Shown here one piece after another: positions 7,678 to 24,049 of a stretch of DNA of 24,049 nt. The stretch comes from a virus. The stretch lies in the IMG/VR virus record IMGVR_UViG_3300032284_002766, positions 1 through 24,049 of that record; one strand, given 5' to 3'. How positions within the stretch are numbered: position 1 is the first letter of the stretch; every line of letters begins with the position of its first letter. The notes beneath the pieces are model-generated. The model was not told where the DNA came from. It did no database searches and saw only the letters and a program-made list of their open reading frames with translations. The position numbers were made by a program, and so were the translations under genes.

Positions 7678-9557
7678 TGGCAACTTCCTCATCAGTTCGT
7701 GTAACCGAATTAGACTTTGATCAGATAAAAACCAACATAAAAACCTATCTGAGAAATCAGAGTCAGTTTACGGACTTTGATTTTGATGCCAGTAACCTCA
7801 GTGTACTGCTGGACATTTTAGCCTATAATACACACTATAATGCTGTGCTGGCCAACATGGTAAGCAATGAAATGTTCCTGGATACAGCTTTAAAACGCAG
7901 CAGTGTAGTTAGCCTGGCCAAACAGCTAAGCTATACTCCTCGCAGTGCCAGATCAGCTCAGGCTACTGTGAACATTGCAGTAAAAAATATTCTAAGCAAC
8001 CCTCTGGTGTTGAATCTAGATCCTTATTTTGTGCTAACCAGCAACATTGATGGTGTAAACTATGCGTTCTATACCACACAGGCCTATTCAACCACCAGTG
8101 TAAGCGGAACCTATACCTTTAACAATGTAGTTGTTTATCAGGGACGTAAATTAGATTATTATTATACCGTGGAAGCTAATTCTAGTCCACGCTGGAAATA
8201 TCCCATACCCAATACCAACGTAGATACTACCACACTGCAGGTAAGTGTTCAGTATGGTGGTGTAGGTGGTTTTAGCTTACCTTATACTCTGGTTACAGAT
8301 ATTACAACAGTTGGTGCCACCGACAAGGTTTATTTCTTGCAGGAAAATACCGAAGGTTATTATGAAATATTCTTTGGTGACAATGTCATGGGTGCTAATC
8401 TTAACGCAGGTGATGTTGTAAAAATTACCTATCTGATTACCGATGGAACCAGTGGCAATGTTAGTACAACTGCCAATGTAAGCTGGAGCAGTTCCGATGT
8501 AGCTGGTGAAAGCACCGTGGACAGAACCATAACCACCATAAGCAAACCCTCAGGTGGTTCAGACAAAGAAGACATAGACAACATTAGATTCCATTCATTG
8601 CATAACTATGCAGCTCAGGGTCGAGCAGTTACTGGCAATGATTATGCTAGCATTATCAGTGCCGAAGTTCCAGGTGCTGAAAGCATCAATGTCTGGGGCG
8701 GAGAAAACAATGTTCCACCAAAATATGGTACAACATTTGTAAGCATCAAACCTAAAACAGGTTTTGTGCTAACTGACAACGAAAAAACTCGCATTATCAA
8801 TGAAGTGCTTAAACCTCGGGGCATAGTAACAGCTCAGCATGAATTTGTTGATCCTGAATACTGTTACCTGAGCTTTACAGTAGATGTTCGCTACAGTGCA
8901 AACCGAACCAATCTGGGCGCAGGCGATATCAGCAGCATGGTGCATGATACCATAGTCAACTTCATGGACACCAACTTGAATCGTTTTGGTGCAGCATTCT
9001 ATAAGTCTCAGCTCGAAGGCCAGATCATGGCTCTGGATGCCAGCATACTAAGCGTAAATGTCGTGTATAAACTACAGAAACGTCTGGATCTGGTGCCCAA
9101 TGTTAGATTTAATAAAACCGATACCCTATTTTTCCCAGGTAAAATTCACCCCAACACAGTACGAAGCAGTTACTTTTATAATGTATTGCCCAGTGCTGAT
9201 GGAACAGGTTTCCATTTAGCTCAGGTTAGAGACGTACCTAACCAAAGTCCTCCTGACTACAATGGCACAGGCCTGTTACAGGTCATTGACCTGGACAATG
9301 GTCAGGTCTTAGATGACAACATAGGCAGTGTTTTCTATGCAGACGGTAAAATTACTCTGGTGGCTACGGCTCTGCTGGTCATACATGGTTATGTAAGCAA
9401 TAATACCCAGTTCCTGGCCAATGTTGGTGTACAGGAAGATAGTGGCGATGTATTCCCAGCCTATAATGAAATCCTAACACTAGATGACAGTACTGCAGAT
9501 CCAACTGCAGGTGTAAACAATGGCATCATTATCAACGTTTATCCAGTAAATAATTAA
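7677..9557 (+). CDS. 6: Baseplate wedge protein gp6
   Basis: 626 residues; T4 gp6 is 660. gp6 dimers form the inner ring that joins the six wedges. The N-terminus TELDFDQIKTNIKTYLRNQS and then FDFDASNLSVLLDILAYNTH, YNAVLANMVSNEMFLDTALK and LSYTPRSARSAQ are the strongly conserved gp6/baseplate-J-type start. A baseplate-J-like core lies at about 315-410: GNDYASIISAEVPGAESINV, a W-G-G-E-x-N loop, and TRIINEVLKPRGIVTAQHEF. The C-terminal part (from about 470) is beta-rich. The gene begins on the last base of the gp25 stop and ends on the first base of the gp7-like start, so gp25-gp6-gp7 form a stop-start-overlapping chain. Complete, with no frame defects. Confidence 0.95.
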   Translation: MATSSSVRVTELDFDQIKTNIKTYLRNQSQFTDFDFDASNLSVLLDILAYNTHYNAVLANMVSNEMFLDTALKRSSVVSLAKQLSYTPRSARSAQATVNIAVKNILSNPLVLNLDPYFVLTSNIDGVNYAFYTTQAYSTTSVSGTYTFNNVVVYQGRKLDYYYTVEANSSPRWKYPIPNTNVDTTTLQVSVQYGGVGGFSLPYTLVTDITTVGATDKVYFLQENTEGYYEIFFGDNVMGANLNAGDVVKITYLITDGTSGNVSTTANVSWSSSDVAGESTVDRTITTISKPSGGSDKEDIDNIRFHSLHNYAAQGRAVTGNDYASIISAEVPGAESINVWGGENNVPPKYGTTFVSIKPKTGFVLTDNEKTRIINEVLKPRGIVTAQHEFVDPEYCYLSFTVDVRYSANRTNLGAGDISSMVHDTIVNFMDTNLNRFGAAFYKSQLEGQIMALDASILSVNVVYKLQKRLDLVPNVRFNKTDTLFFPGKIHPNTVRSSYFYNVLPSADGTGFHLAQVRDVPNQSPPDYNGTGLLQVIDLDNGQVLDDNIGSVFYADGKITLVATALLVIHGYVSNNTQFLANVGVQEDSGDVFPAYNEILTLDDSTADPTAGVNNGIIINVYPVNN

Positions 9558-12418
9558 TGACCATAACCAATCAAAAAATATCTTCGCTGGTTCCTGATCA
9601 GATACCAGGTTACATATTGGATTCATATCCATTGTTTGTGACCTTCATGGTCAAATATTTCCAGTATCTGGACAATAGCAGCTCAGGTGTACAGTATTCC
9701 CTGCAGAATCTCATACAGAATCGAGACATTGATACCACAGCTGAGAATCTACAGAATGAATTCCTCAACACCTACATGCCTGGATTTCCTAATACCAGTG
9801 CAGCCGATAAAACCATACTGGTCAAATACTTCAGAGAGTTCTATAAACTCAAAGGATCCGAAAAAAGCTTTAAATTTTTCTTTAGAGCATTCTTTGGCGA
9901 CGAAGATGCTGCAGTAACCTATCCACGCGATCATTTATTCAAACCTAGTTCAGGTCAGTATTATGTAGAACGTCGTCTGGAAGTTACCAGTGACAACACC
10001 GAAACTCATAACCTGGCCAGAACCTTAGTAACTGGTCAGACCAACGGAGCTACTGCTCTGGTAGAGTTTGTAACCAAGCCCGTGGGACTGGGCACTGATA
10101 ATACCTATAACCTGTTGATTCAACACGATGGTGTTACTGCCATAGCCTATGATGACAATGGCGATCCCATATACTTTACCACCGGCGAAACTGTCATAGG
10201 AAACAGCTGGGACTGGAACACCGGAGCCAGCAGCGAAGTCATCATGACCGTGGCTGAACCTCTGAATACCTTTGATGGTGTTTATTTAGACACCCATGGT
10301 CAGTTAAGTTCAGATCAGTTATTGCAGGACAGTTATTATTATCAGCAGTACAGCTATGTACTAAAAACTCGTGAAGATCGAGCTCTCTGGGCCGATACCA
10401 TTTTAAATTACATGCACCCAACTGGCACCAAGATGTTCAATGACATATATGTGCCAACTGCTCCAGGCAGCATACCTCATACCAACATAGTTGAAACCTC
10501 GGTAAGAATTCCTGTAATTAAAAAGTATCTGAGTTCACCTACATTTACCTTTGACCGAGTTGGCGATGTTATAACAGGAACCAGTACCACACAGATAGCT
10601 ACCAGCACAGGTTTTGCTACTGTTACCTATACTACAGCCAACAGTGTGCATTATGCCTATGCTGCAGGTTATGACTATCCGGGTTTAAACATTACCTGGG
10701 CCTTACAAAAACCCGGAGATACCAGTTTCCTTACCGAAATCACCACACAGGATGGTCCTAGTTTTGACAAGTTAAATCCTAGCGTGAGCCTGGATCAGCA
10801 GTTAATTGCCTATCCCCTGGATGTAAACACCAGTCTAGTTGTTACCAGATACATCACAGGCAGCAGTAATCTAGCAGCCAATACACTGCTAACCAGTTTT
10901 ACCACTAAAGTATTAACCTACAGCAGTGCATTATCCAATGCCACCAGTGTAGGCAGCATGATCATGCTCATAACCTGGGTCAAAACATCTCAGGGCAACA
11001 ATGCTGCTGGCGAAGGACAGAATGCCGTGGTCATAAGTTTTAGCAGCAACAACACCATTGTACCTTATTTTAACGATGAAACTCAACGCAACCTTAAACG
11101 CGTAGCTCTGGGTGAAAGTCTGGAATATAACAAATTAAACTATGTGCATAGTAGTAACAGCATAAGCAGCGCAGTTAGTTCAAATACACCATTCAGCAGC
11201 TATGCTGTAACAGGTCAGCCAGCTAAGATAGTATTTAAACCCTATAACTGGGAACGTGGTCAGACCTATGATCGAGTAGCCTTGCGCATAGAAATGGATA
11301 GGGCTCAGCAAATAAATACCAGTTTAACTGAAACATTTGCTAGTTCATCATTTAGCACCGTGGGATTAATCAGCAGCTATGGTTCAAGCAGTTTTACTAC
11401 TAGCTTTGGAGCCAATAGTTTTGCAGGTACAACCAGCAACACCTTGTACACATTCAGCAGCAACTGCATGGTATTCAATGGCAACACCAGTCAGACCAGA
11501 TTCGTACAGAGTATTCCATTGACTACCAGTAGCCTGGTCACAGGCCAAATTAGTTTTGTAGCTGGCGACGGATTCAATGGCGGGAACATACCCTATGCCA
11601 GTCAGGATCTGGAACTTCAATATAGCCTAAACAATGGTTCAACTTGGTTTAGTACTACCAAACTCTGGGCAGGATCAAGTTCTAACCTCTGGACCTATGG
11701 CACCACCAGCCTGAGCGGTCTGGCCTGGACCAAGGCAGGCAGCACTTGGTTGACCGGCATAGGAACACTGTTTGGAACTGTGTTAAATGTAGGCGATAGA
11801 TTGGTCTTGGCCTATACCAGCACTACTACAACCTATACGGTTACAGCCGTAACCAATAATAACTTGGTTCAGGTTACACCGGCTTTTGTAGACAACAACC
11901 TGAATCTACAACCACTATCTGGCACTGCAGCCGTGGGCGCAGGCAATGTAACCATTACGGGCTCTGGCAGTCAGTACACCAAACAATTATTGCTGGGTCA
12001 GAGCATTACCCTGACCAGTTCAAATACAGCTACCAGCTATGTAATTACAGGCATCATTGATGACAGCACCCTAACCATTAATCCTAGTCCGGTCGATAGC
12101 TATACCAGCACCACCATCTATGAAGTAACAGGCATACCTGTGTATTATAGAAAGCCAGCAGCTCAGCAGGTCAATACAACTAGCCTGACCGTTTATGGTG
12201 CAGCCGGCGGTCCAGCTACCAGCGTTCTGGTTCGCATCATACAGATTGGTCCAGTCGCACCCAATACCGTAAATTATGTGCTGAACACAGTACAATTAAC
12301 CAGCTGGCGCTATCAGGCCACCACTGGAACCGTGAACATAAGTGTAGCAGTTAGTTCAAATTCTACGCTAAATATAAGCGATAATGACTTTTTTACCGTA
12401 ACTACCATAGGTATCTGA
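9557..12418 (+). CDS. 7: Baseplate wedge protein, gp7-like with rearranged architecture
   Basis: 953 residues; T4 gp7 is 1032. In T4 it is the main wedge arm organiser, binding gp10, gp8 and gp6. Residues about 20-330 match what is the C-terminal part of T4 gp7: DSYPLFVTFMVKYFQYLDNS and GVQYSLQNLIQNRDID correspond to T4 'DSNFEAFCEAYIQYLSDG' and 'QYNNLRNLIRNQ'. REFYKLKGSEKSFKFFFRAF matches 'Y-x-T-K-G-x-x-x-S-Y-K-F-L-F', and ALWADTILNYMHPTGTKMF matches the T4 'SDVIRFVHPVGFGF'. The large T4 N-terminal region is absent. Instead, about 600 beta-rich, Ser/Thr-rich residues follow, including two tandem related modules at about 723-775 and 790-845. The ATG overlaps the gp6 stop. The gene ends in TGA, which itself overlaps the gp8 promoter. 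Confidence 0.85.
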   Translation: MTITNQKISSLVPDQIPGYILDSYPLFVTFMVKYFQYLDNSSSGVQYSLQNLIQNRDIDTTAENLQNEFLNTYMPGFPNTSAADKTILVKYFREFYKLKGSEKSFKFFFRAFFGDEDAAVTYPRDHLFKPSSGQYYVERRLEVTSDNTETHNLARTLVTGQTNGATALVEFVTKPVGLGTDNTYNLLIQHDGVTAIAYDDNGDPIYFTTGETVIGNSWDWNTGASSEVIMTVAEPLNTFDGVYLDTHGQLSSDQLLQDSYYYQQYSYVLKTREDRALWADTILNYMHPTGTKMFNDIYVPTAPGSIPHTNIVETSVRIPVIKKYLSSPTFTFDRVGDVITGTSTTQIATSTGFATVTYTTANSVHYAYAAGYDYPGLNITWALQKPGDTSFLTEITTQDGPSFDKLNPSVSLDQQLIAYPLDVNTSLVVTRYITGSSNLAANTLLTSFTTKVLTYSSALSNATSVGSMIMLITWVKTSQGNNAAGEGQNAVVISFSSNNTIVPYFNDETQRNLKRVALGESLEYNKLNYVHSSNSISSAVSSNTPFSSYAVTGQPAKIVFKPYNWERGQTYDRVALRIEMDRAQQINTSLTETFASSSFSTVGLISSYGSSSFTTSFGANSFAGTTSNTLYTFSSNCMVFNGNTSQTRFVQSIPLTTSSLVTGQISFVAGDGFNGGNIPYASQDLELQYSLNNGSTWFSTTKLWAGSSSNLWTYGTTSLSGLAWTKAGSTWLTGIGTLFGTVLNVGDRLVLAYTSTTTTYTVTAVTNNNLVQVTPAFVDNNLNLQPLSGTAAVGAGNVTITGSGSQYTKQLLLGQSITLTSSNTATSYVITGIIDDSTLTINPSPVDSYTSTTIYEVTGIPVYYRKPAAQQVNTTSLTVYGAAGGPATSVLVRIIQIGPVAPNTVNYVLNTVQLTSWRYQATTGTVNISVAVSSNSTLNISDNDFFTVTTIGI
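11720..12095 (+). repeat. Two tandem beta-modules within the gp7-like protein
   Basis: Residues about 723-775 and 790-845 share one pattern: a Gly/Thr strand (WLTGIGTLF / VTITGSGSQY), then L-x-x-G-D/Q-x-x-x-L (LNVGDRLVL / LLLGQSITL), then a T-x-Y-x-V/I-T-x-I strand and a final hydrophobic-plus-P turn (QVTP / TINP). Similarity is at the protein level, not DNA. Such small beta modules are common in phage structural proteins. Boundaries are approximate. Confidence 0.55.
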
Positions 12419-12424
12419 TAAATA
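12417..12424 (+). promoter_or_regulatory. T4-type late promoter before gp8
   Basis: GATAAATA sharing its first two bases with the TGA stop of the gp7-like gene. 25 nt lie between it and the gp8 ATG, with a good Shine-Dalgarno (GAGGA, 12438-12442) 7 nt before that ATG. This is the best-formed promoter plus leader in the window. Confidence 0.8.
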
Positions 12425-12449
12425 AAACATAGAATTCGAGGAATCAAGC

Positions 12450-13874
12450 ATGGCCATAGTCACAAGTAAATTCAGAGTTAGCGCAGCCTCAGGCTTTGCT
12501 AGCACCTTTTTAACCGATAATATCTATTTGGTTCTGGGTCGCCCTCAGAGCTGGGACAATAGCATTGGACCTAGTTTTCAGTCCCAGGCTTCAGGTACTG
12601 TTACTGATAATAACCCACCAAACCCTGTAGATAACAGTCTAAATGAATATGCTTTTTGGCGTGATGCCATGGCTGGCGTTAAGCTAACCTATAGTAACCT
12701 TAGATTGGTTACGGCTCGCAACAACTGGAGCAATGGTTTTAGATACGACATGTATCAGCATGACATCAGCAATGCCAATCCTACTCAGAGCAATGCCTAT
12801 ACACTAGACGATAGCAACTTCATAGTCTATGTTACTTCTACGGGCGCAGTCTACAAGTGCCTATACAATGGTAAAACAGCTGCCAACACCAGTGCAGCCA
12901 GCACGGTGCAACCAACTACAACCAGTGCTGCTCCACAACAGACCGCAGACGGTTATATCTGGAAATACCTGTATACCATTACCAGTGCAGATGCTGACTT
13001 TGTAACAGCCAACTACATACCAGTTCCCGTAACCACCAGTGTTAGCAATGTCAATGGCATTGATGTAATCTATGTCACTGGCGCAGGATCAGGATACACA
13101 GGTAATCCAAGCATTACCATCTATGGCGACGGTCAGGGTGCAACTGCTACAGCTACAACATCTGCTGGTAGCATCTTAAAAATTAACGTAACCAATTCAG
13201 GATCAGGTTATACCTGGGCCAAGGTAGAAATCAACGGTGGTGGTACTCCAACCACAGCCAATGCCATTGCAGTACTGGCTCCAGTAGGTGGGCATGGAGC
13301 TAACCTCGTCTACGAAGCTAATGCTCATAATGTCATGATAGCCGGAACCGTTAGTGGTTATGAGCAAAGTGACTTTCCAGTAAATCAGGATTTTAGAAGT
13401 GTGGCATTGATTAAAAATCCTAGTGCTTATACAACCGCTGGCGTGACCAGTTATGGTACTACATTTAGCATGACCTCGGGCCGTATTTTAAAAACACTGG
13501 TCATGACATCAACTGCTACCACAGCTCCAGCCAATGATACAACATTGGTGGGCAGTAACAGCGGTGCTCAGGGCGTGTTTGTATTCCAAAGTTCCAGCAC
13601 CATTAACCTACAGTACATACAACCAGTTGCATCTGATGTTCCAAGCAATATTTCTGATACACTTATTGATACTGGTGGTACAGGTAATTTAAAACAATTC
13701 GTAAACAACGAAACCATTACAGGTACGGCCTATGCTCAGGTCATAGCATCAACAACTTCGGTAACACCAGAAATACAGCCTTATTCAGGTCAGCTGTTGT
13801 ATCTGGATTATCGCCAACCAGTTACTCGTTCTGCAGGTCAAAACGAAAAGATAAATATAGTCATAAACTTTTAA
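12450..13874 (+). CDS. 8: Baseplate wedge protein gp8
   Basis: 474 residues; T4 gp8 is 334. gp8 is a dimer in each wedge, bound to gp7 and gp10. Both ends match T4. The start reads AIVTSKFRVSAASGFAST (T4 'RAIVTSKFRTE'), then YLVLGRPQSWDN and an ARNNWSNGFRYDMYQ stretch like 'IPRRDWGDTRY'. The middle carries ADGYIWKYLYTITSADADF (T4 'GDGYVWEYLFEI'). The end reads SGQLLYLDYRQPVTRSAGQN followed by EKINIVINF (T4 'SGEMIYMENR' and 'EEINILFTF'). The extra length comes from an insertion at about 195-290 with two GSGYT repeats and a GGHGAN loop. A GAGGA ribosome site and a dedicated promoter precede it. The last codons contain the promoter of the next gene. Confidence 0.94.
   Translation: MAIVTSKFRVSAASGFASTFLTDNIYLVLGRPQSWDNSIGPSFQSQASGTVTDNNPPNPVDNSLNEYAFWRDAMAGVKLTYSNLRLVTARNNWSNGFRYDMYQHDISNANPTQSNAYTLDDSNFIVYVTSTGAVYKCLYNGKTAANTSAASTVQPTTTSAAPQQTADGYIWKYLYTITSADADFVTANYIPVPVTTSVSNVNGIDVIYVTGAGSGYTGNPSITIYGDGQGATATATTSAGSILKINVTNSGSGYTWAKVEINGGGTPTTANAIAVLAPVGGHGANLVYEANAHNVMIAGTVSGYEQSDFPVNQDFRSVALIKNPSAYTTAGVTSYGTTFSMTSGRILKTLVMTSTATTAPANDTTLVGSNSGAQGVFVFQSSSTINLQYIQPVASDVPSNISDTLIDTGGTGNLKQFVNNETITGTAYAQVIASTTSVTPEIQPYSGQLLYLDYRQPVTRSAGQNEKINIVINF
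13086..13214 (+). repeat. Paired GSGYT motifs in the gp8 insertion
   Basis: GSGYT occurs at residues 213-217 and 251-255, 38 residues apart, each preceded by a V-T-x-(A/S/G) strand and followed by a short I-x-I/V-x-G-x-G element. This is a small tandem beta repeat within the region absent from T4 gp8. Confidence 0.6.
13850..13857 (+). promoter_or_regulatory. T4-type late promoter inside the gp8 3' end
   Basis: GATAAATA lies within the last codons of gp8, 30 nt before the ATG of the giant protein. A Shine-Dalgarno AAGG (13878-13881) follows at the expected spacing. The codons there spell Lys-Ile-Asn-Ile, a conserved gp8 ending, so the promoter is compatible with the protein sequence. Confidence 0.72.
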
Positions 13875-13887
13875 TTCAAGGTAAACC

Positions 13888-16800
13888 ATGGCACTTAAGT
13901 TTAGCATAACACCCTATTTCGACGACTTCGACGAAACCAACGAGTATTACAAGGTACTGTTCCGTCCCGGAGTAAGTGTACAGACCCGTGAAATGAACAC
14001 CATGCAGAGCATTCTGCAAAACCAGGTTAGTAAAGTTGGTGATCATTTATTTAAAAACGGAACCATGGTCATACCTGGTCAGGTCAACTACAATAATAAA
14101 TTAAACTATCTAAAAATTGCTTCGGTCAATCTGGGCTATGATCCAGATACTGGAGATCCAGTCATGCTAAGTGACCTGGAAGATTGTTATGTTACCCAAT
14201 ATGCTGATGGAACCGGTGTAAAAGCTCAGATTGTCAAGGCTCTGGATGCAGATCCTGCTTCAGGTGATCCTATAACATTACTGTTGTTATACACCAGCGG
14301 CAATGAAACTGCTGACCTAACCTTAACTGACAAGGTGTTTTCAGCAGGAGCAACACTATATGTGGCTTATCCAAATACAGCTAGCAGCCCAGATGCTACC
14401 CGAACCATTGTAGTTAGTTCAGGTTCAGGCATCAATGGTAGAGCCGCTGCTGCAGGTATTCAAAAGGGCGTGTACTATTGGAATGGTTATTTTGTAACAG
14501 TTCCAACAAGTAGCATTGTAGTTCAAAAATATGCCGATGATCTTACAACCATTAATGCTAAAATTGGTCTTAAATTTTCCGAGAGTGTTGTTACCGTAGA
14601 CAGCACCTATACACAACCAACCAGTACCATTACAGCTGTTACTCAGCTAACCTATAATGCCGGTGGCGATGAGGCCCTGTATGATAATGCAGCAGGTACT
14701 CCAAACTATGCAGCTCCTGGCGCACATCGCTATAAGATTACACCTAGCTTTGTTATAGTAGGACTGGATGAAAGTCCTGAAAACTTTTTTGAATTAATCC
14801 GCATAGCCGAAGGTGTATTACAGACTCAGGTCATTGGAACCGAATACAACATACTTAACGAAACACTGGCTCGCAGAACCTTTGAAGAAAGTGGTAACTA
14901 TGTTGTAGATGATTTTAAATTTGACATACGCGAAGCCAGAGCCAACAACCGAGGCACCTGGTCTGTAACACAGGCCTATCAGGTCAAGGATTATGTACAA
15001 AGCAGCATCAGCAGCTCAACCATTAGATACTTTGAATGTATTCAGGCTGGTGTCAGTGGCACTGGTGAACCAGCTCAGCTAAGCACTGCTGGCATTGACG
15101 AAACAACAGTTATTACCGACGGTTCAGTTAAATGGCGTTATACTGCTAATCCAGTAAGCAATCGTGGTGTTAGTAAAACAGGTTCAAGCAGCAACCTGGT
15201 GACTAGTTTTGGCGTAGGCCGAGCATTTGTACAGGGTTATGAAATCAGTAATACTGCCAACAGCTATGTAACCATTCCCAAGGCTCGTGATACCCGAACC
15301 GAATCTCATAGAAACATCAATGTACCTCAGGGCAATTACATCTATGTAAATAAAAATTATAGCTGGGGTTTCCCTGACATGAGCACAGCACCTCAGGTGT
15401 TGTTATACGATCGTTTTGCCAACAACAACCTAACAAAATTTGGTTTTGGTAACATTGTAGGTACTGCTCGTGTTAGCTGGATTGAAAATGATGTTCGAGG
15501 CGGTTTAAAAGTAAGCCTAAACAACATTAAAATGAATCCGGGCAAGGGTTTTGATCGCGATGTGAATCGTCTGATTGTACCTGATCCAACCACCAGCAAC
15601 GTAACCACAACCAGCTATCTGGCCACGGGTTTTGTTAAATATGCTGGCGCAAGTACCAGTTCATTCCTACAGGTAAGTGGTTCCATTAACTTTACTTCAA
15701 GTTCATACAGTGGTAACGGCACCATTGCAGTGACCGGAACCCTAACCGCGCTGGCTCAGGAACTACAGTTAGGTGACGTAATCACACTGGGTACAGCAGG
15801 TTATGCTACAACCAGCAGCTGGACAGTTACCAATATTCTAAGTCAAACTTCCATAACTATTTCAGGTCCCAGTGTGCCAGGTGGCGCAGCTGGCACCAGT
15901 TTACATGTAAGATTTGCTGCTGGAACAGTACTAGGAGTGGCTTCTGGTGCAGCAGTTTCAACCCGATTCCAAAGTGAATACCGCACCGGTGATATTATCT
16001 GGTTATATGCATCTAGCAATGCCAATACAGCAACAGTGCTGAGCATTACCAGTGAAAACCGCATGATAGTTAGCAGCACCATGAGCAGCATATCAACTAC
16101 TCAGCATGGTAACTATTATTCAGGACGAAACGCTGGTTTCTGTGCAGACATCTGGAGCAACTACCAGTTAGGTATCAATGCTCGTAAATACACAGGCCTG
16201 TTTACTCTCAGTGACTATTCAGGTGGTACAACCACAGTAAACCTGCATCAGGCAGTTCGTATCACAGGTACTAACGATGCCAAGTTGATTCAGGAAATGG
16301 CCATTAATGATTACTGCGACATAGGTGGTAATCGTTTATTCATTACTAAAATTTCTAGCAACACCATAGCCTATGGTGTATGTTTGGATACAACAGTTAC
16401 CACAGGCACCACACAGTATCCAGCCTTTAAGGTCAATGCTAACCTGCAGGAAACTTCAAGCAACACGCTATTGTTCCCAGTAGCCAACCTAAATGCTGTT
16501 AGCAGCATAGCCAACAATGTCTATACGGTCTACAAGTCTCAGGCTGCAGGTGGTGTAAGCCTAAGTGGTTCTACTCTTACCGTAACCTTGGCCAGTGCCA
16601 GTGGTACTGCTGCTGCCGAACAGGGCTTTATAGACCCCACCGTGTATCTGGTTAGCTCCGATGGTGCCAATGCTCCTACAACCAGTTATACTGTAACAAC
16701 CGTAAGCATTAGCAGCAATGTCATTACCTTAACCGTAAATGGTACATTTGCCAGCACAGCCATACGTGTATTATATCCAGTGCTTAAATCAAGCGCCAGT

Positions 16801-19800
16801 GTTTCAACTCTGGGCGGGTTAAAAACTAAAACCTTAACATTTAATCAGACCGATGATTTCCTTAGCAGTTCCGTAGCCAACGTAGCCAGATTACAGCTAA
16901 GCAAATCAGACATTTACAGAGTGGTCAAGGTTCTAATGTCCACTACGGGCTACTATAATATCTGGAATGCCACAGTTCAAAGCACTGCTCAGGATGTCAC
17001 CCAACGTTATCTGTTGGACAATGGTCAAAGAGATTGTTTCTATGACATTGGTGCATTAACACTTAAAGCAGGTTATCCATTACCAATTGGTAGTGTGCAT
17101 GTAGTCTATGATTATTTTGAACATGGCACAGGTGATTATTTTGCCAGAGCCAGCTATAACAGCCTGACCAATCCTTATGAAAACATTCCTACCTATAACG
17201 ATCGTAACCTGGGTGATTTCCTGGATTTCCGAAGCAAGATTGATCCAGCTACAGGCAATTTATTAAATTCAGCTCCGCCCAGATACAATACATTCTTTAA
17301 TGCTGACATCAGTTACTATCTGGGTCGCAAAGAAATGATATTCCTGGATCAGACCGGAACATTCTTCCACACCAGTGGTGTTTCAGATACCAATCCAGCT
17401 TTACCCAAGGTAGCCGACAACAATGGTTGTATTAACCTTTACAATCTGACCCTGAATCCCTATACCATTAGTTCACAATATCCAGACATTGGAGTAGAAC
17501 GCTTTGACAATCGTCGCTACACGATGCGAGACATAGGTCGTATTGAAAAACGCGTTGGCAATCTGGAAGAAACCACAGCTTTAAGTCTATTAGAAACCAA
17601 GGCAGCAGCTCTGCAGATTCGAGATACCCTGGATCCAACCCTGGAAAGATATAAAACTGGTTTCTTTGTAGACAGTTTCAAAGACAACAGCAATGCAGAA
17701 AACGACGGAGATGCTCGCTTCAGTCTAGACACTCTGGCTCAGACACTGCAAACCAATGTTAACTATCAGAGTATTCCTCTGGTAGAAAAAACCAATTATG
17801 TAAGTGCTACCTATACCAGCAGCGAATTAACTGCTCTGGCCGTGGCTCGAACTCAGGACAACTATACGGTAACTGGTGGACTATTAACCCTGAATTATAC
17901 AACTGCCACCATGATCAGTCAGACCCTGGCTACAACCAGCATAGCAGTTGCACCATTCCTGACCGCAACATTCATTGGTAGCCTTACCGTAAGACCAGAC
18001 ACTGACATCTATGAAGATGTTACCACTGTTGATCAAATTGTATCATTTAGCTCTAACCTTACAGCTGCTGCTTTAAACAAAGCCGTGGCTGATTTAAGAG
18101 CCTGGTGGAGCCGTCCATATCGAGTAGATACTCAGGTTGTAAACGTATATTTAGATACAACCCGCACAAGTACTTTAATACCCTGGTGCCGAGCCAACAC
18201 CATATTGCTCAAAGCAGTTGGCATGAAACCCAATAGTAAAGTTTATTCATTCTTTGATGATACTCCAATTGAACCCTACATGAGTGGTGCAGTTAAATTA
18301 ACCTTTGACGCCATGCCATTCCTGGATGTAGACAATCAAAGAGCAGCTGCTAATAGCGAATGGCCTCGTTGGAGACAATTATATGTAAGCGCAGACGTAC
18401 AGGAAGTTACACGCTGCTACCTGGTTCAGACCGGTCGACGCAGCTGGGCCTGGGCCTATGACTATGGTTGGTTCCATAGAACATTTAGACCCCTGGATTT
18501 TGAAACCAGCATTCCTAGTTCAGCAACTCGTGATGCCTTTAGATTGGCTCTGGGAGCAGGACCAGTAGTTTATTACTACGAGGGTTCAACCTGCGTGGGT
18601 TCAGGTGTCATAGGTCATCAAAACGGTAATACCTGCTACCTGGTAAATGCTCGTGGTAAACTGGCCAGCAACTATATACGCAGTGCAGGCAGCGTGGATT
18701 ACAGTGGTGGTAATTTTTATGTAAGCATCAACAATTCCGAAGTACGCAAAGTATATGCCAAGGCCACAGTAAGCAATGCATTAACTCAGGATAGTAATGG
18801 TAACCTGTATTCTGACGAATTTGGTGTAGTATTAGCTCTGCTTGACTTACCAAACACTGACACAACCAGATTCATTACTGGTAAAAAACCAGTTGTCATG
18901 ACCGATAGTGCAACCGATGATCCAGATACCTGGACCAGCCGAGCCGAGGCCAGCTATACAGTCCAGGGCTTTGATGTGTTGATCACCAACAATTATTCAG
19001 CCACTCAGAGCTATGTGCTAAGACCCTATGACCCCATTGCTCAGACCTTTGTGGTTCCAGATCAGTATCAGAACGGTGCATTTATTACTGACATTGATGT
19101 ATTCTTCCAGGCCAAACCAGCTCTGGAAAAAGCTCCAGTTAGCCTAGAGCTAAGAACCTGTGACAGCACTGGTCGTCCAAGCGGAACCGAAATGGTGCCT
19201 GGAACAGCAGTAACCAAGTATCCAGATGACATTACCATTGACAGTGCCTATGGCCAAACACCTACCAAGTTTACATTTAAACAACCTGTGTATCTGCAAC
19301 CTGGTAAAAACTATGCGTTTGTTCTTAGATCTGATACTAAAAACTACAGAGTCTGGATGGCCACTTTGGGCAAACAGGATGTGTATAACACCAATCAGAC
19401 CTATACCACAAACTATACTCTGGGTTCGTTGTTTAAATCTCAGGACGGTACTTTATGGACCGAGGATCAGCTAAGCGATCTTAAATTTAACATTAGCCGA
19501 GCTGTATTTAATACTGCCACACAGGGTGCTACATTCCGTGTAGTAAATCATCAGATTGAAACTGCTCAGCTTCCATCTAATCCATTATTGTTTACTCATG
19601 GCAGCAACAAGATCCGCATTGGTCATAAAAACCATGGATTTGCCAGCGGTGATACAACCCGATTGTACAGTGCTTATTATCAAAGTCAGTTTGCTATCAA
19701 CAACACAACTACTTTAAATGGTATACCAGTTGGCGAAATATTTGGTGCCTATACCAGTGCTTCTAGCATTAGTTATAGACCAGCTGATACAGATCCAAGA

Positions 19801-21286: not shown

Positions 21287-21625
21287 ATGGCCATACAACA
21301 AAACCTCATACTAGAACAGGGTACGGACTTTCAGGCAGTTATCAAGCTATATTCCGATAACACTAATGCTCTGGATCTAACTGGTTATGGTGCAGCCGGC
21401 CAGATGCGTCGTAGCTATGACAGCGTAACTGCCAGTGCCATATTAACCGTAAGCATACCAATCCCTGCCAATGGTGAATTGTATCTGAGCCTAGCCGCAG
21501 CCAGCAGCATAGGTGTTAGATATGGTCGCTATCTATACGATGTAGTATTAACTCAGTCAAGCTCAGGCATCATTAGCAGAGCCGTAGAAGGTATAATCAC
21601 AGTAACACCACGCGTTACCAGGTAG
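21287..21625 (+). CDS. Small beta-sandwich protein, probably virion structural
   Basis: 112 residues. The layout is familiar from small phage tail proteins: a start of QNLILEQGTDFQAVIKLY (x-x-x-x-E-Q-G-x-x-F), then ALDLTGYGAAGQMRRS (x-x-D-L-T-G-Y-x-A-x-x-Q-x-R), a run of short strands, YGRYLYDVVLTQSSSG (G-x-Y-x-Y-D-x-x-L-T) and a closing SRAVEGIITVTPRVTR (x-x-x-x-G-x-x-x-V-x-P-x-V-T-R). This pattern is common beside tail-fibre genes and suggests an Ig-like or BppU-N-like fold; I cannot name the family more closely. Its ATG directly abuts the stop of the coiled-coil gene. It sits immediately upstream of the fibre-like gene, so a fibre-anchoring role is plausible. Confidence 0.83.
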   Translation: MAIQQNLILEQGTDFQAVIKLYSDNTNALDLTGYGAAGQMRRSYDSVTASAILTVSIPIPANGELYLSLAAASSIGVRYGRYLYDVVLTQSSSGIISRAVEGIITVTPRVTR

Positions 21626-21631
21626 GTTCTT

Positions 21632-24049
21632 ATGAGCATTCGTAAGATAGCCGGTCGCACATCAAGCCTAGCGGTCAGCGCTACTACTACCCAGCACGGA
21701 ATCTTCAAAGCAGCCCAGATCAGTAAACCTTTGGTTGCTCGCGCCGCCATTTCTGGTGGCTTATTAATTAACAAAGCCGCTCTTAGCAGTCTAGACCGAA
21801 TTCGTCGTCTGAGCTTTGACCCAGATGGTCAGGGACTGCGTCACATCTATGATTATCTGGGCTTTACCGAAGCTACTAAATTATTCATCAACAAAGCAGT
21901 TGATGACCGTCTAGAAGTACTGAGCCTGGCTGACGTAGCCATAGCACAATTTGTATTAGGTCGCAATCCTGCTGATACCATTACAGCAGCAGATGTCTAT
22001 AAAACTCTGATACGAGCCTATAGAAACTTTCCTGACAGCATAGCTCCAAAAGAAAACAAGGCTCTGGGAGCTCTTAAAGCTGCCAAAGACACACAGAGTT
22101 TCCTGGACAGCATATTCATAGCTCGTGTTAAAAACTTCTATGACACTGCTAACACCAACGATACATTTAAACCTTTATTTACCAGCTTTAGACGCTTTGA
22201 TGACAGCGTGGGCATGCTGGACAACTTCTACATAGGCGATGGCATAACCTATGAAGAAATTAAAACATTCCGAGACACTGTATTAATTGGATCTGGTGTC
22301 ACTGGTGCTGTCAGAGCAGCCGGAGATGGCCTAGAAAACTTCAGTGTGGTGTTTAACAAGTATCTGGATCCAGATGCTGTTATATTAGACACAGTGAGCC
22401 AGTTAAATCTCAAGAGCATTGCTGACCTGCCCATCATATTAGATAGTGATAGACTATACACTATCAAACCTTTTGTTGATGTACTGGATCCTGTAACAGA
22501 TAGCAAAAACTTTGTAGCCAACAAAGCTCTTCCTGAAACTCTAAACTTAATTCTTACCAATCCTATATTATTTCTGGATAAAGAATTTGCTGATATTAGC
22601 ACCATGCTGGACAGCATGGATTTTGGTGATCATTTAACCTATGGAACCACCAAGTTAATCACCGAATATCTGACCCAGGTTGATGCTAACCAATTACTGG
22701 TGGCCAAACCTCTGACCGAAACCAGCATAGCCGCTGATGCAAACGTCAAATACATTAACAAGTCTCAGATTGAAGTATTAACTGCTGCTGAAAGCAATGT
22801 TAAATTTGCGGGTAAACAACTCACAGATGCTCAGCTCTTGGCTGACTTCTTTGCGCTGCTTAGACCTTATAATTTTGCCGATAACTTTATAGCTGCGGAT
22901 CGCAAATACTTCTGGCTTAACAAGGCCGTGGCCAGTGATGTAACTGCTCAGAGCAACATGATCAGTTTATTTGATAATGGCATAGGCGTCTACAACATTA
23001 AACCAGTATTTGATACCGAACCCATAACTGATTACTTTGCTCGTAAGGTATTATTCATCAGATATCCTTTTGATTTCTTCCTGGATGATGAAGCTCCGAC
23101 AGATCGCATTCAAAGCAAAGTTGTTACCATGGATGCCAAGGCAGGCGCCCTAAATGTAGTTCCCATATTACGCAGCAACGTCATAGCCTATTCGGAACAG
23201 TTTGATTATACACCTTATTGGCAAAACACCGGACTGAATATTGTTCCCAATGCTCTAACTGCGCCAGCAGCTGTGGTAAAAAGTCCTAGCCCCAGCTATG
23301 ATGCAGCTCAGCTACAGGAATTGTTCTACAACAAACAGCTGGATCCCTATGGTAAGAATTGGTTCCAGTTGGTCCCTGGAAGATTTGTAGCCAGTTCAGA
23401 TGCAGATTTAATTGTTCAGACCACCAGCAACAGCATACACAAGATCAACACACCCAATATTCCAGAGCTAAGTCTGCGCAGTAACTTTAGCTTTAGCATA
23501 TTCATAAAACCCGCTGGCACCAACAAGGTTAGATTGTATGCAGTTGATCAGGTCTATGCAGACTTTGATCTCAGCACCAATAGCATAATTCTTAAAAATT
23601 GCGAAGACGCCTGGATTAACCTGCTGCCCGATGGCTGGAGAATCATAGGCATACGTAACCGTATCAGTACCTTTGGTACAGCACCTCAGTTACAGACTCT
23701 GGAACAGATCCTCTACAACAACATCAATTCTCCTTTTGGTACTGATCAGTACAACCTAGTTCCAAGCAACGCCAATCAGGCTGCTCATATCTACCTGCTG
23801 GACAACACAGGTAATTCAAGCTTTACAGGCGATGGTGTAAGTGGTGCCTATATCTGGGGAGCGCAGATTGAATTTGGCGAACAGGTCGAACAGGAACACA
23901 GTGCGCTAAACTATATTCGTACAGCGGGTGGTCCAGCCAGTAAAATAGGTTACAGAGTTACACCAGCAGATCATGACCGTGTATATGTAGGTAGTCTAGA
24001 ACGTACAGGATTTACCAACAGACTCAGCAATGATGCCTATGAAAATGTA
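21632..24049 (+). CDS. Tail-fibre-like protein with carbohydrate-binding-like domain (partial)
   Basis: 806 codons, open from ATG 21632 to the window end, so the C-terminus is missing. An AGG at 21624-21626 supports the start, 6 nt after the preceding stop. Residues 1-500 are helix-rich and contain a degenerate recurring N-K-A element (Asn47, Asn87, Asn297, Asn430; weaker at Asn376, where A is S), each in a hydrophobic-N-K-x context. Residues about 516-758 look like the carbohydrate-binding-like domain found in many phage fibres: NVIAYSEQFDYTPYWQNTG, NIVPNALTAP, ADLIVQTTSNSIHKI, FSFSIFIKPAG, GWRIIGIRNR, AAHIYLLDNTGNSSFTGDG, then YIWGAQIEFG at 740-749 and a YIRTAGG end. Two stretches that do not belong to that pattern interrupt it. 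Likely virion fibre or adhesin; the receptor is unknown. Confidence 0.88.
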   Translation, partial: MSIRKIAGRTSSLAVSATTTQHGIFKAAQISKPLVARAAISGGLLINKAALSSLDRIRRLSFDPDGQGLRHIYDYLGFTEATKLFINKAVDDRLEVLSLADVAIAQFVLGRNPADTITAADVYKTLIRAYRNFPDSIAPKENKALGALKAAKDTQSFLDSIFIARVKNFYDTANTNDTFKPLFTSFRRFDDSVGMLDNFYIGDGITYEEIKTFRDTVLIGSGVTGAVRAAGDGLENFSVVFNKYLDPDAVILDTVSQLNLKSIADLPIILDSDRLYTIKPFVDVLDPVTDSKNFVANKALPETLNLILTNPILFLDKEFADISTMLDSMDFGDHLTYGTTKLITEYLTQVDANQLLVAKPLTETSIAADANVKYINKSQIEVLTAAESNVKFAGKQLTDAQLLADFFALLRPYNFADNFIAADRKYFWLNKAVASDVTAQSNMISLFDNGIGVYNIKPVFDTEPITDYFARKVLFIRYPFDFFLDDEAPTDRIQSKVVTMDAKAGALNVVPILRSNVIAYSEQFDYTPYWQNTGLNIVPNALTAPAAVVKSPSPSYDAAQLQELFYNKQLDPYGKNWFQLVPGRFVASSDADLIVQTTSNSIHKINTPNIPELSLRSNFSFSIFIKPAGTNKVRLYAVDQVYADFDLSTNSIILKNCEDAWINLLPDGWRIIGIRNRISTFGTAPQLQTLEQILYNNINSPFGTDQYNLVPSNANQAAHIYLLDNTGNSSFTGDGVSGAYIWGAQIEFGEQVEQEHSALNYIRTAGGPASKIGYRVTPADHDRVYVGSLERTGFTNRLSNDAYENV
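23309..23380 (+). repeat. Insert element copy 1 in the fibre domain
   Basis: Codes residues 560-583: starts QLQELFYNKQLDPYG and ends QLVPG. It aligns over 24 residues without gaps with copy 2 (8 identities by my count, at L, Y, N, P, G, L, V, P). It lies between the TAP and ADL strands of the carbohydrate-binding-like domain, where such a segment is not expected. Confidence 0.5.
23696..23767 (+). repeat. Insert element copy 2 in the fibre domain
   Basis: Codes residues 689-712: starts TLEQILYNNINSPFG and ends NLVPS. It lies between the G-W-R strand and the IYLLD strand of the same domain. It is preceded by TAP, as copy 1 is at a greater distance. The DNA of the two copies is diverged, so any duplication is old. 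Confidence 0.5.

Follow-up and report, generated by a model that had tools for sequence, protein, structure and literature searches.

Does a phage tail-fibre domain that looks broken by two related extra segments owe them to insertion, or are they a regular part of the domain? The question is raised by the last gene of the window, i.e. the whole stretch of DNA analysed, a 24,049-base virus record that stops short of its own second domain copy. The original prediction, derived from the sequence, described a fibre carbohydrate-binding-like domain interrupted twice by segments that carry similar units, and regarded these as a duplicated loop element, possibly a spreading peptide-coding insert or a receptor-specificity cassette.

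The fibre gene and its relatives

Among the T4-like baseplate proteins encoded in the window is a gp8-type wedge protein, whose closest isolated relatives, pelagiphages and cyanophages among them, are about 30% identical to it. The features of the fibre gene and its surroundings are collected in Table 1. Neither plain blastn against phages nor scanning of viral contigs with single sequences gave a match, and no Pfam family matched the fibre, its domain included. Relatives were found via the neighbouring gp8-type gene, and the nearest 21 were then searched over their whole records. In L084 and L085, the fibre matches of two sister phages (G021 and G010), one TAG was counted inside the fibre match; it terminates the short gene upstream, immediately ahead of the fibre start, and does not interrupt the fibre.

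Table 1. Position of the features discussed in the text, in window coordinates.
Feature	Position	Strand	Remarks
gp8-type wedge protein	12450-13874		used to reach relatives
L-shaped-fibre-assembly-like ORF	21287-21625		precedes the fibre gene
Tail-fibre gene, last in the window	21632..24049	+	open at the window end
Shaft repeats (fibre residues ~101-221)	21932-22294		strongest internal similarity of the protein, scores to 61
CBM-like beta-sandwich fibre domain, residues 520-775	23189..23956	+	profile match, AF2 model, VIA-align
Segment 1, 44 aa, residues 546-589	23267..23398	+	in clade copies, missing from contiguous homologues
Segment-1 predicted helix	23303-23329	+	AF2
Segment-1 unit LQELFYNKQLDPYGKNWFQLVP	23312-23377	+	inside segment 1
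Segment 2, 44 aa, residues 675-718	23654..23785	+	in intact clade copies, missing from contiguous homologues
Interval where sister copies break (profile positions 168-200)	23675..23773	+	inside segment 2
Segment-2 predicted helix (model residues 171-181)	~23684-23716	+	both AF2 runs
Segment-2 unit LEQILYNNINSPFGTDQYNLVP	23699-23764	+	inside segment 2
TPADHDRVYVG motif	23960..23992	+	by-eye likeness to the motif after free-standing segment-1 units in G006

Domain identity and fold

The domain is of a known phage fibre beta-sandwich type, that of the RcGTA head spike and E217 gp45, with a CBM4/CBM16-like fold. By profile it matches the head spike fibre of RcGTA (E 1.6e-54) as well as E217 gp45, Pa193 gp46 and a tail fibre gp17. 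Sequence membership in the Rcc01080/gp45-type family is given by E-values of 1.6e-54 and 2.3e-25 with a 51-row profile, and the family match persists with the insert-bearing rows alone (E 1.8e-17). The fold is the same according to VIA-align, with Z 21.4 for Pa193 and 19.3 for E217 (rmsd 2.2-2.4 over ~178 residues); CBM4 and CBM16 modules are the next best solved structures (Z ~10-12), and have the beta-sandwich in common with the window domain but only ~10% identity.

The first AF2 run yielded a beta-sandwich core with pLDDT >90 and one short helix per segment, predicted at low confidence (pLDDT ~50-60). A second run, on insert-bearing rows only, was poorer (pLDDT 58.7 overall and ~33-47 inside the segments); it kept the segment-2 helix and showed a weaker segment-1 helix.

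Concerning function, capsular polysaccharide is the ligand of the RcGTA head spike fibre (PMC10218006), which makes sugar binding the likely function of the window domain; by analogy, a cell-surface sugar is likely bound by its sandwich. This head spike fibre, Rcc01080 (PDB sequence 6tb9), belongs to the same domain family by profile, but is a 325-residue protein that is contiguous over the match and has neither segment, whereas the window domain has both. E217 gp45 and Pa193 gp46 (8env, 9b45) share the fold at detectable sequence homology, but theirs is a contiguous domain within a baseplate triplex protein, with a ~195-residue match that is too short for both extensions. In E217 the baseplate triplex protein anchors the fibre (PMC10329688).

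Inheritance of the two segments

Alignment with ~150 contiguous relatives from diverse phage records bears out the predicted domain skeleton and domain call, as well as the presence of two extra segments: the relatives have the same skeleton but are shorter by ~40 residues at site 1 and by ~30 at site 2. Likewise, 69-75 residues separate the Gly-Trp strand from the WGAQ motif in the window clade, vs mostly 31-49 in contiguous copies.

The picture within the clade, sampled as eight distinct intact copies only, window included, is uniform. In all seven other distinct intact copies, found in sister phages (G006, G021, G010, G011, G007 = L120 = L122, L118 and G012), both segments occupy the same alignment columns, and segment 1 is also present in half-domain copies of the clade. 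The insertion event that had been proposed is hence abandoned, since both segments are regular and aligned in every intact clade copy, an outcome that the prediction itself had named as its refutation. Judged from these alignments, the segments are standard inherited parts of the domain in one uncultivated T4-like phage group, not fresh insertions.

Both segments are under mostly purifying selection, with omega 0.03-0.32 for most non-saturated comparisons, segment 2 being looser than segment 1 (omega up to 0.72 in one pair). At the DNA level, comparison of the two segments gave nothing beyond one 15-base near-match. Both this lack of DNA-level similarity and the mostly purifying selection speak against a mobile insert, and likewise against a rapidly evolving specificity cassette; the value of 0.72 in segment 2 qualifies this argument. 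Nor was presence in some and absence in other close relatives, as expected from a mobile peptide-coding insertion, seen among the intact clade copies.

A variable, receptor-contacting face formed by the two extensions is an unlikely reading. Both do extend loops on a glycan-binding fold type, and the variability of segment 2 is higher in some pairs, but the conservation of segment 1 exceeds that of the skeleton itself (amino acid identity 0.75 vs 0.53, window vs G006) and the obvious variable part of the clade is the adjoining Mtd_N genes described below.

Likeness between the two segments

The predicted relatedness of the units in both segments passed a shuffle test in the window: segments 1 and 2 give an ungapped 22-residue match with a score of 49, which 0 of 20,000 shuffles reach (maximum 47), and the DNA pattern for YNx4P[FY]Gx5LVP has exactly two occurrences in the window and none in shuffles. 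The score is modest for this protein, whose own shaft repeats reach 61, and the exact pattern is absent from all other viral contigs searched. In the profile comparison, the segments form the best window pair in the domain, in the same register (P = 0.0014).

Among the eight copies tested, the likeness is significant only in the window and in its closest relative, G006 (p <0.001), being weaker in the latter, and it is absent in the other six (p 0.19-0.92), so that an ancestral duplication is probably not its origin. The duplicated loop element originally put forward, i.e. one ancestral loop element copied to a second loop, is improbable on this count, even with the profile match and the helix plus extended LVP predicted for both segments in its favour. 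Behind the best-pair profile match there may be a faint common origin, or convergence on one helix-plus-LVP shape.

Segment 1 as a recurring fibre module

A profile grown from segment 1 detects it ten times in G006 fibre genes, six times outside any domain copy (for example LDADQIQEIFYN...NPYKKAWYQLAPYY); since it was iterated on the same sequences, its E-values are optimistic. The search did not recover segment 2. The module, of which segment 1 is an example and which these fibre proteins also use elsewhere than in the domain, follows the pattern DA-x-Q-[LI], a likely helix, and then W-[YF]-x-L-[AV]-P. The suggestion that the unit be sought in related fibres proved productive for the segment-1 type.

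Sister copies split at the segment-2 loop

In the sister phages, the next domain copy keeps its first part (profile 1 to ~171), mostly near the end of a gene that we call gene A. The rest of the domain is missing in cis in every such copy found, and the missing part (profile ~200-262) is the start of a separate gene, gene C. This arrangement is known from the relatives and not from the window's own second copy.

Receptor-binding (Mtd_N) genes stand between the halves. Two lineages have one such split each, and a third has three, which appear to be nested. In the independent assemblies L120:1-3185 and L122:4624-9152 there is one gene between gene A and gene C, with an Mtd_N domain (PF18454, E 3.9e-10). 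In G021 (L123, ORFs 8558 to 17221) the halves are separated by four genes, the first of which carries Mtd_N and a Peptidase_S74 chaperone domain. G006 (L103 and L104, reverse strand; reverse-complement coordinates 786-22375) holds three N-parts and as many C-parts; their arrangement is N N C C N C, and other fibre genes lie among them. The place of its gene A tail was obtained in 0 of 3,000 shuffles; this order and tail place apparently fit one split nested in another.

Gene C adjoins the same downstream gene in L204 and L207. In the more distant G013-G016 the fibre reaches that same gene as one long ORF, and the domain copy of G016 is contiguous. Searches of isolated phages matched neither half-gene C nor the half-domain end of gene A; a specific literature account of split fibre domains was not found within our incomplete coverage of the literature.

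The halves have their own starts, two of them with a clear TAAGGAG site, and omega is low in both (0.11-0.22 for gene C and 0.14-0.15 for the N-part). Its own start, the purifying selection and its recurrence indicate that gene C is not debris; a decayed gene as the source of the split copies is unlikely for the same reasons, the recurrence being in independent assemblies. It should be noted that the splits in different phages may share one ancestral event, and hence do not count as separate lines of evidence for a special site.

Since segment 2 covers exactly the interval where the sister copies split, it could be a scar, the window copy having once been split like the sister copy and later re-fused. 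We consider this very unlikely, as the half-gene tails have no recognisable remnant in segment 2, and segment 2 is found in all intact copies, including that of G012, a phage without a split copy in its fibre gene. Least probable, and refuted in its simple form, is a double insertion of a spreading peptide-coding element into the domain: the two units are alike in the window and the segment-1 unit recurs in G006 fibres, but the positions are the same in all intact clade copies, DNA-level similarity is absent (best local match 15 bases), the exact pattern occurs in no other viral contig searched and, in the loci examined, the recurrence stays within this fibre family.

Interpretation and significance

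The explanation that we regard as probable is that the window domain is a glycan-binding beta-sandwich of the known phage fibre type which, in an uncultivated T4-like clade, has two inherited and probably helical loop extensions. Rather than being mobile sequence, these extensions would dock the domain against neighbouring fibre parts. Segment 2 would correspond to the link between two sandwich strands, which most phages keep short, which is long in this clade and which is cut in the sister copy; it would be a peripheral connection that can be extended or severed without destroying the fold.

As for the split copy, the simplest functional reading is that the halves join in trans, with host-recognition genes placed between them; from the gene arrangement, such trans-assembly is plausible. 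A fuller version, which we put forward tentatively and hold to be possible but doubtful, is that the two half-genes flank interchangeable receptor-binding genes and that their products complete one sandwich in trans, as a domain joining two fibre parts. The pair would then act as a host-range landing site in which cassettes can nest.

The host recognition cluster of pelagimyophages and cyanomyophages is a hypervariable block of fibre/Mtd-type genes in the T4-like structural region, before gp14 (PMC7029224). The Mtd_N genes of the sister phages are in that structural-region position, and the window itself ends before it. The split arrangement is consistent with the hypervariable host recognition cluster of pelagimyophages; the cluster described in PMC7029224 consists of gene blocks, whereas the sister-phage block sits between the halves of one fibre domain.

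In themselves, the two segments amount to ordinary elaboration of loops in a phage glycan-binding-type domain, and the real surprise is not in them but in the neighbouring domain copy, split inside the segment-2 loop. If trans-assembly of the halves is true, T4-like phages could in this way add and swap host-recognition genes inside a fibre gene while the fibre stays unbroken, and the architecture of the hypervariable host recognition cluster would become testable.
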